Positions 39,123-40,798 of a DNA stretch of 63,088 nt are shown piece after piece. Position 1 is the first letter of the stretch; each line of letters begins with the position of its first letter. Location of the stretch: positions 1 to 63,088 of the forward strand of contig JAIOPB010000019.1 in assembly GCA_021414105.1 (NCBI GenBank), read 5' to 3'. Below the pieces are notes generated by a model, which saw only the letters and a list, made by a program, of their open reading frames with translations, had not been told where the DNA came from and searched no databases. The position numbers and the translations under genes were made by a program. This DNA is from Nitrosarchaeum sp. GTDB taxonomy: Archaea; Thermoproteota; Nitrososphaeria; Nitrososphaerales; Nitrosopumilaceae.

Positions 39123-39878
39123 TTACTTGATTGATTCTCCGCCATCAACTGTAAGTATTGCCCCTGTTGTCCAGGCAGCGTCATCGGAAGCAAAATACAA
39201 GATTGCTTTCGCTACTTCTTCTGGTTGACCAATTCTGCCTATGGGATGCTCATTATTCATAAATTCCCTATCTTTTTCAGTTTTTAAAAATGGTTTTGTC
39301 ATATCTGTATCAACTACACCAGGACAAATACAATTAACCCGAATTTTGTATTTTGCATATTCTAATGCCCAACATTTTGTAAGAATAATTAATCCTGCTT
39401 TTGCTGCAGAATATGCATCTGCATTAAATCCTTGATATGCTTTTAATCCTGCATCTGATGAAATATTGATTATTGATCCTGATGTTTTTTGTAAATGAGG
39501 CATTGCTGCTTTTGTAAATCTAAATTGTCCTGTAAGATTCACATCCAAAACATCATTCCATTCGGATTCATCAATTTCATGTAATTGTTTTATCTTTGGA
39601 AAAATTCCTGCATTATTTACTAGAATATCTAATTTACCAAATTTCTTAATAGTTTGTTCTACAACTTTTTTAACATCATTTTCATTTCTAATATCAGCTG
39701 TTATTCCTATTGTATTTGAAAGCTGACTAACTGCATTTTCTAATCTCTTCGAATCTTTTGCTGTTATGACTACATTTGCACCATTTTCAGCAAAAATTTT
39801 TGCAGTTGCAAATCCAATACCTCTACTTCCACCAGTTACAATTGCAACTTTACCAGATAGTTTCAACGTTTTTTTCAA
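39123..39878 (-). CDS. SDR-family oxidoreductase, FabG/glucose dehydrogenase-like
   Basis: A 251-residue classical SDR with TGGSRGIG near 14, NNAG near 88, the catalytic Ser in IINISSDAG, YSAAKAG near 154 and the GAILTVDGGES C-terminal segment. The AxDS context after strand 2 does not settle NAD versus NADP. Substrate unknown. TTG start. It leads a minus-strand group of three genes ending with cysQ. Confidence 0.85.
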   Translation of the reverse strand: MKKTLKLSGKVAIVTGGSRGIGFATAKIFAENGANVVITAKDSKRLENAVSQLSNTIGITADIRNENDVKKVVEQTIKKFGKLDILVNNAGIFPKIKQLHEIDESEWNDVLDVNLTGQFRFTKAAMPHLQKTSGSIINISSDAGLKAYQGFNADAYSAAKAGLIILTKCWALEYAKYKIRVNCICPGVVDTDMTKPFLKTEKDREFMNNEHPIGRIGQPEEVAKAILYFASDDAAWTTGAILTVDGGESIK

Positions 39879-40235
39879 TAAATTTCGTAATTTATAGCTC
39901 TTTAAACTAATATAGAAATTTACTTTTCATATTTGTAGGATGAATTCTATAATTTGAAAATAATTTTATCATTTCATAAATCATTCTTCAAAACCTAACT
40001 GTTTTCAAGAATTTCATCAAGTACTATCAACATCTAATAATAAATCAAAATATCATGTAACATTATTTTCTTTCACATTATCTCTGTTGAATTTTTTAAT
40101 TTTCTAATTATTTTGATATAATTTTTTCCAAATCTTTGGGTTAACTAGAAGCATAAAATTTTTCATAAAACTCTATAAGATATTATAATTTTTCATACTA
40201 AATCTTAAATAATTGAAGTAACTACAATAAATAAT
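39879..40235. other. Gene-free AT-rich spacer
   Basis: About 360 bp with no open frame of useful length, no tRNA and no strong inverted repeat. The last 30 bp carry the promoter of the candidate ncRNA. Apart from that I see nothing assignable. Confidence 0.6.
40205..40211 (+). promoter_or_regulatory. TATA box of the candidate ncRNA
   Basis: TTAAATA lies about 25-31 bp upstream of G40236, where the folded part begins, as expected for an archaeal promoter. Confidence 0.5.
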
Positions 40236-40368
40236 GCCGAAGGATATAATTCCTATCGACTAAAGTGGCGTTACCCCGCAGAACGGAAAAGGTAATCAGG
40301 CGTTTTAACGACCTGACCACGAGAGGAAATCTCTCACAGTTCTGCAGTAAAGGGGTAAACGCCTTTTT
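40236..40368 (+). ncRNA. Candidate structured ncRNA with poly-U end
   Basis: About 133 nt that fold well in an AT-rich gap without coding capacity. P0 is a hairpin at 40238-40258 with loop UAUAAU. P1 pairs GGCGUUACCCC (40267-40277) with GGGGUAAACGCC (40352-40363), 11 bp with one bulged A. P2 pairs GCAGAAC (40278-40284) with GUUCUGC (40339-40345), separated from P1 on one side by AGUAAA. Inside are hairpins P3 (40296-40316, UCAGG/CCUGA) and P4 (40321-40335, GAGAG/CUCUC). P1 is followed by UUUUU, a terminator-like end that fixes the + strand. It is not tRNA, 5S, SRP or RNase P RNA as far as I can judge. Confidence 0.75.
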
Positions 40369-40798
40369 AATTTTCAATAATATCCACCGATACTGGACCT
40401 AATTCATTCCCATTCGGATTAATTTCAATGGATATTACCTGTTGAGCTGGAACTGAAATTGCTTTTTGTCCATCATAATCCCAAGTATAATACTCTGATA
40501 TTCCTGTTTGATGTAGAATCCCTTTCAACTTGAAATTTTCAGAAAAATTATAATTTTCTCCTTTTAATAAAATAGTTAGAGATTGAGGACTATCACCATT
40601 GGGAACAAATCTGAAAAGATAATCTCCTTTATTCACAGTAAATGTATTAGAATAAATTCCATTTTTGTATAAATTAGGATCTGCCAAAGTAGCATGAAAA
40701 ACTACATTACTATTTTCCATATCATCCTGACTAAACGATAATCCTATTACAACTACTATCAACACTATAGGAATGATGATTATTATTTTTTTATTCAT
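40367..40798 (-). CDS. Exported or anchored hypothetical protein
   Basis: A 143-residue protein with an N-terminal hydrophobic helix (about 4-22) after MNKK, then a beta-rich soluble part. It may be lipid- or helix-anchored outside the cell. No family is recognised. Its stop lies in the U-run of the convergent ncRNA. Confidence 0.65.
   Translation of the reverse strand: MNKKIIIIIPIVLIVVVIGLSFSQDDMENSNVVFHATLADPNLYKNGIYSNTFTVNKGDYLFRFVPNGDSPQSLTILLKGENYNFSENFKLKGILHQTGISEYYTWDYDGQKAISVPAQQVISIEINPNGNELGPVSVDIIEN

Follow-up and report, generated by a model that had tools for sequence, protein, structure and literature searches.

A structured RNA family of Nitrosopumilaceae with a maintained leaderless open reading frame that may engage the ribosome

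Analysis of an intergenic region of Nitrosarchaeum sp. points to a structured RNA family of about 135 nt that is nearly universal in the Nitrosopumilaceae and that is absent both from Rfam and from the literature we searched. At its 5' end the RNA carries a leaderless open reading frame (ORF) of eight or nine codons, whose start and stop are maintained while the encoded amino acids drift at close to the neutral rate. On the evidence of sequence comparison, we consider it probable that ribosomes engage this small RNA and that a short run of translation, ending against the closing helix P1, gates or protects a trans-acting body. The window, by which we mean the whole 63,088-nt stretch of DNA that was analysed, contains one copy of the RNA; feature coordinates below refer to its forward strand unless stated.

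Results

From the AUG onward, the window RNA is predicted to fold with a minimum free energy of -49.8 kcal/mol, compared with -29.9 +/- 3.2 in 200 dinucleotide-shuffled sequences, all of which fold less well (z -6.3). An earlier, sequence-only reading of this region had proposed five helices, P0 to P4, and all of them exist, with compensatory changes among 90 distinct homologues. In that set 35 of the 37 pairs have changed on both sides, and both-side changes across P0-P4 occupy 343 cells, as against 72 in shuffled and 29-87 in slid controls. For the 91 aligned matches (90 distinct), whose alignment was fitted to the covariance model and so favours the structure, 90.3% of cells pair and the covariation score is 0.353, compared with 0.161 shuffled and no more than 0.070 slid. 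An independent MAFFT alignment of 14 copies agrees with the fold from the model-fitted alignment. Judged by these comparisons, the RNA is a fold with all five helices, and the covariance search that the reading had suggested recovers homologues whose stems covary across the family.

The first hairpin, P0 (40238-40243 with 40253-40258), lies entirely within the ORF; it shows both-side changes at all six pairs, with 78% of cells paired, and taken alone reaches -7 kcal/mol (z -2.9). The closing helix P1 (40267-40277 with 40352-40363) begins 3 nt past the stop codon and has changed on both sides at 10 of 11 pairs, its outermost G-C pair being lineage-specific. Inside it, P2 (40278-40284 with 40339-40345) pairs the conserved strands GCAGAAC and GUUCUGC, with 96% of cells paired and both-side changes at 7/7 pairs. 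The two remaining hairpins are P3 (40296-40303 with 40308-40316; 8/8 pairs changed on both sides) and P4 (GAGAG-GAAAU-CUCUC, 40321-40325 with 40331-40335; 96% paired, 4/5 pairs changed on both sides), the latter being the most conserved sequence element of the RNA. The three-way junction that had been described is present, as is the asymmetric bulge AGUAAA between P1 and P2 (40346-40351), which occurs in most copies with variable length and sequence. If the 5' strand of P1 in the window were masked, for example by a ribosome, its 3' strand could form an 8-bp hairpin, AAAGGGGU/GCCUUUUU (40346-40368). By eye, this alternative is found only in near relatives of the window and is absent from distant genera, and it was therefore set aside.

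Upstream of the RNA lies the TATA box TTAAATA (40205-40211), at -29 to -23 from the AUG. It is near-invariant in homologues, some of which have ATAAATA, and in 123 of 129 copies an 8-mer TATA box precedes the start codon by 29-30 nt. In archaea, such spacing places the start of transcription at or next to the AUG, and we infer that the transcript opens with the AUG (40234-40236), or very nearly so. The 5' end had previously been set at 40236, so that the start moves about 2 nt upstream. This start is placed by the TATA spacing; transcription from the G of the ATG would remove the codon. At the other end, a U5 tract (40364-40368) overlaps the stop codon of a convergent 143-aa ORF (40367-40798, minus strand). 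Across 128 copies the first 4 nt past P1 are 62-82% T against a background of 33%, and the 12 nt past P1 are T-rich. Judged by sequence comparison, the RNA is a free-standing gene with its own promoter and U-rich 3' end.

The gene gap of about 490 bp given for this locus measures 488 bp, between ORFs at 39123-39878 and 40367-40798, both on the minus strand. The convergent 143-aa ORF begins with a hydrophobic N-terminal stretch and matches nothing in Pfam, and the convergent arrangement with an ORF of this type is retained in most genera. The copy at this position (A) is flanked by a minus-strand gene on one side and a convergent ORF of ~140-170 aa on the other, with the TFB gene coming next in many genomes; the stop codon of the neighbour lies within about 11 nt of the RNA end in most genera checked. 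More broadly, a sense gene is next downstream in 7 of 42 neighbourhoods, in three of these within 150 nt, and the window's own neighbour on that side is convergent, with its end at the U tract. That so few copies have a sense gene close downstream bears out the proposal of a free-standing, probably trans-acting thaumarchaeal RNA.

The ORF itself (ATG CCG AAG GAT ATA ATT CCT ATC GAC TAA, 40234-40263, encoding MPKDIIPID*) contains P0 and had been overlooked. All 129 distinct copies possess such a frame: its start triplet lies close to the place set by the promoter, and a stop follows 8-12 codons later; the length is 8-9 codons in 127 of them, and the other two are displaced to 10 and 12 codons. 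The start is ATG in 121 copies, GTG in 5 and TTG in 3, leaving its T and G invariant, and the stop is TAA in 77, TAG in 34 and TGA in 18. TGG is never seen at the stop position, although the column frequencies predict 4-5 cases. A tree built from the RNA body, with the ORF left out, requires some 24 changes of stop type, all from stop to stop, plus six length changes. In the absence of selection, just one in six to one in three stop-codon changes would yield another stop; the counts from the tree and from the minimum-spanning comparison are approximations. In 127 of the 128 copies measured, 30-35 nt separate the start from P1; the spacer differs in steps of one base, the ORF in steps of a codon, and the stop codon stays near-fixed 3-4 nt ahead of P1.

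The peptide behaves differently from its frame. Single-base codon differences comprise 34 synonymous and 115 nonsynonymous cases, a synonymous share of 0.228 against a neutral expectation of 0.253. Paralogues within one genome encode the unrelated peptides MPKDIIPID, MSISVSTE and MQKRANSNK. MPKDIIPID is common to many type A copies, and K-D pairs or a D/E at the end turn up repeatedly. Maintenance of the stops while the amino acids drift neutrally suggests that decoding is selected and the peptide is not. The sample leans to intact copies, as these were found by an RNA similarity that includes the ORF columns, and hairpin P0 accounts for part of the conservation of the ORF and also limits synonymous change. 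Four copies (L096, L104, L106 and L140) were read by eye, L104 with its TTG start being the least regular, and two identical sequences with a weak TATA match (L065 and L163) stand outside the 129; by eye they carry the ORF MPMDINSID*.

Copies found later, and only by a second covariance model (R2), conform to the same plan: 15 of 18 have an ORF of 8-9 codons starting at the TATA-defined position, nine being of type C (below), with peptides such as MQKRANSNK*, MQNRVNYNE*, VQKRVKSNK* (from a GTG start) and, by eye, MPVNSKND*. The exceptions are L208, with no clear short ORF (by eye at best a 13-codon frame from a TTG), L215, with four codons (by eye), and L217, which is probably a false match and not a member; L212, for which the extraction missed the match, and L209, whose E value of about 1 is not credible, were left out of this check. 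A pattern of box, spacing, ATG, 8 codons, TRR and GC, applied without any RNA model, retrieved five sites in four genomes, all of them family members, and none in a reversed control. The usual stop is lost in L100 (4625-4750), L102 (14621-14743) and L208, where the next stop comes 1-5 codons on, at or inside P1. With a leaderless ORF in nearly every copy, the RNA is not simply non-coding. The earlier description of a small regulatory or architectural RNA is therefore supported in part: it survives as regards a trans-acting RNA, is incomplete in lacking the ORF, and finds no support for an architectural role.

A DNA search detected copies in 23 of 61 genomes, namely the window's own and 60 relatives. 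The covariance model R1, built from 14 copies, found the RNA in 221 of 250 Nitrosopumilaceae genomes, in 125 of the 131 good ones and in 17 of 22 genera, often in two copies. R2 added weaker copies and a third, divergent type (C) in most Nitrosopumilus and Nitrosarchaeum genomes; the usual number is 2-4 copies per Nitrosopumilaceae genome, with up to four in genus g9 at a laxer threshold. The window's genome has three: A in the window, B at G000:C43:18841-18969 (plus strand) and C at G000:C33:4750-4874 (minus strand). Named records with the RNA belong to Nitrosopumilus, Nitrosarchaeum, Nitrosotenuis, Nitrosomaritimum and related MAGs. In several genomes of genus g9 (L095, L107, L110, L112, L102) types A and C lie ~8-10 kb apart, possibly from an old local duplication, and L101 (g15) has two tandem copies, 309 nt start to start.

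Outside the family, lenient filters with R2 or R3 gave no copy among 24 genomes from the order's other families (three genomes from further families of the class were included in the R3 set), and order- and class-wide searches with stricter filters (R1, R2) gave none outside Nitrosopumilaceae. The RNA is therefore lineage-specific or has diverged past detection. Two contigs labelled Hyphomicrobiales and Chitinophagaceae (L198, L201) carry thaumarchaeal copies, probably through binning contamination. IMG/VR viral contigs yielded no match to three exact patterns, which divergent copies would escape.

Type C (L232, the copy C above, together with L216, L226, L227, L229-L231, L233 and L234) has the same 5' ORF and P1, the latter kept with covariation, and inner hairpins of its own. 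Its conserved motifs are ACAUGUUAUC, in most Nitrosopumilus/Nitrosarchaeum copies, GAAAAA and CUAUACAG. The register of the P0 hairpin differs in this paralogue, and the hairpin takes in the stop codon and has a GC in common with P1; 98% of its cells pair, with little covariation.

The sequence-only reading had matched the RNA to no known family, and Rfam 15 likewise returned no match for the window at the gathering threshold, for the local stretch at E up to 10, or for 18 divergent homologue loci at E up to 1. A tmRNA was considered and rejected, as ARAGORN finds none in the window and Rfam gives no match. Literature on small RNAs of thaumarchaea and ammonia-oxidizing archaea and on related terms does not describe the RNA; early marine metatranscriptome small-RNA work lies outside that coverage.

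Discussion

The position and persistence of the ORF enabled us to propose a model in which ribosomes seem to act on the RNA rather than use it for a useful peptide. In this model, a ribosome would initiate at the AUG without a leader, melt P0 for entry, run 8-9 codons and terminate with its leading edge in the 5' strand of P1. A ribosome with a stop codon in its A site covers roughly 9-12 nt beyond it, a stretch that here takes in most of the P1 5' strand. In length the ORF roughly equals one ribosome footprint, which implies one ribosome at a time. With the footprint reaching P1 and P0 melted, translation and P1 would constrain each other. Because the peptide drifts, it is likely the translation event itself that is useful, whether as a gate on P1, as a ribosomal pause or as a shield for the 5' end. 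Translation could open or hold P1, or protect the 5' end, and how active or how long-lived the trans-acting body (P2-P4 plus the 3' strand of P1) is would then follow ribosome availability. We infer the gating of P1 from a geometric argument only.

Of the other explanations, a dual-function sRNA or tiny mRNA is unlikely. There the peptide of 8-9 aa would be the product, as a signal or regulator, and the structured part a stabilising 3' region or a second function. Maintenance of the ORF and the recurrence of MPKDIIPID and of K-D or terminal D/E would suit it, and leaderless small ORFs are known on archaeal regulatory RNAs such as the M. mazei sRNA154 (20 aa, PMC11456600). However, the near-neutral drift and the unrelated peptides of paralogues in one genome speak against a selected product, and identical peptides mostly mean identical DNA except at the stop, as constraint on the RNA predicts. 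Although a small ORF is maintained, the peptide is not under purifying selection, and the RNA does not qualify as dual-function. An untranslated structural RNA, in which the ATG is an initiator element and the stop a purine-rich linker past P0, we regard as improbable. P0 is indeed a covarying hairpin overlapping the ORF, and an initiator might require the invariant T and G; yet the three stop codons interchange some 24 times without ever giving TGG, the spacer takes single-base indels while the ORF keeps frame, and the divergent paralogue retains the ORF with its hairpin in another register.

Two cis-acting readings fare worse. It is very improbable that the RNA is the 5' part of a longer transcript, with a leader peptide controlling read-through at P1 and the U tract. 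The short ORF, the ribosome-openable stem and the U tract are the parts of an attenuator, and in the window a masked P1 5' strand frees the 3' strand for another hairpin. The copies nevertheless stand at unrelated genomic places, and with no sense gene directly downstream of most of them, or of the window's RNA, membership of the attenuators, and of riboswitches, fails. The least credible reading, and one we would hardly entertain, has the RNA act in cis on the convergent 143-aa ORF, as its terminator or antisense RNA. The closeness of the neighbour's stop to the RNA end at copy A fits this, whereas B, C and additional paralogues share the architecture at other loci, with other neighbours wherever listed.

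The ribosome-engaged reading has partial parallels. Like the M. mazei (Methanosarcina mazei) sRNA154, a proposed dual-function RNA whose leaderless ORF encodes a peptide reported to be highly conserved (PMC11456600), this RNA is archaeal, free-standing and putatively regulatory, and bears a small leaderless ORF towards the 5' end. Compared by description and Rfam only, it differs in lineage, in its 8-9 codons, in its unconserved peptide and in a stop near-fixed a few bases before the closing helix. Ribosome profiling in Haloferax volcanii found sRNAs with ribosome occupancy, mostly lacking coding evidence (PMC12482152). As in the part of that report available to us, small RNAs here would meet ribosomes without a clearly useful peptide, although engagement in our case is deduced; that part reports no shared ORF architecture, whereas here the ORF is defined and conserved, and known from sequence alone. 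Leader-peptide attenuators similarly set a short ORF before a stem that a ribosome would disturb, but most copies here control no cis downstream gene. In the axe-txe minigene, as far as the available portion of the source describes it, translation rather than its product matters (PMC8708949). Such use of a very short ORF for the effect of its translation is what we propose, in an independent structured RNA gene as opposed to a bacterial operon.

More tentatively, and with rather less confidence than in ribosome engagement as such, the RNA might be a free-standing switch: a leaderless nine-codon ORF without a meaningful peptide would admit one ribosome, open or hold P1, and report ribosome or energy status to the trans-acting body, which could make it a new kind of regulatory RNA. 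The Nitrosopumilaceae include some of the ocean's most abundant archaea, and nearly all genomes of the family carry this RNA. An ORF that is maintained while its peptide drifts allows the part that ribosomes play on small RNAs to be tested directly in archaea.
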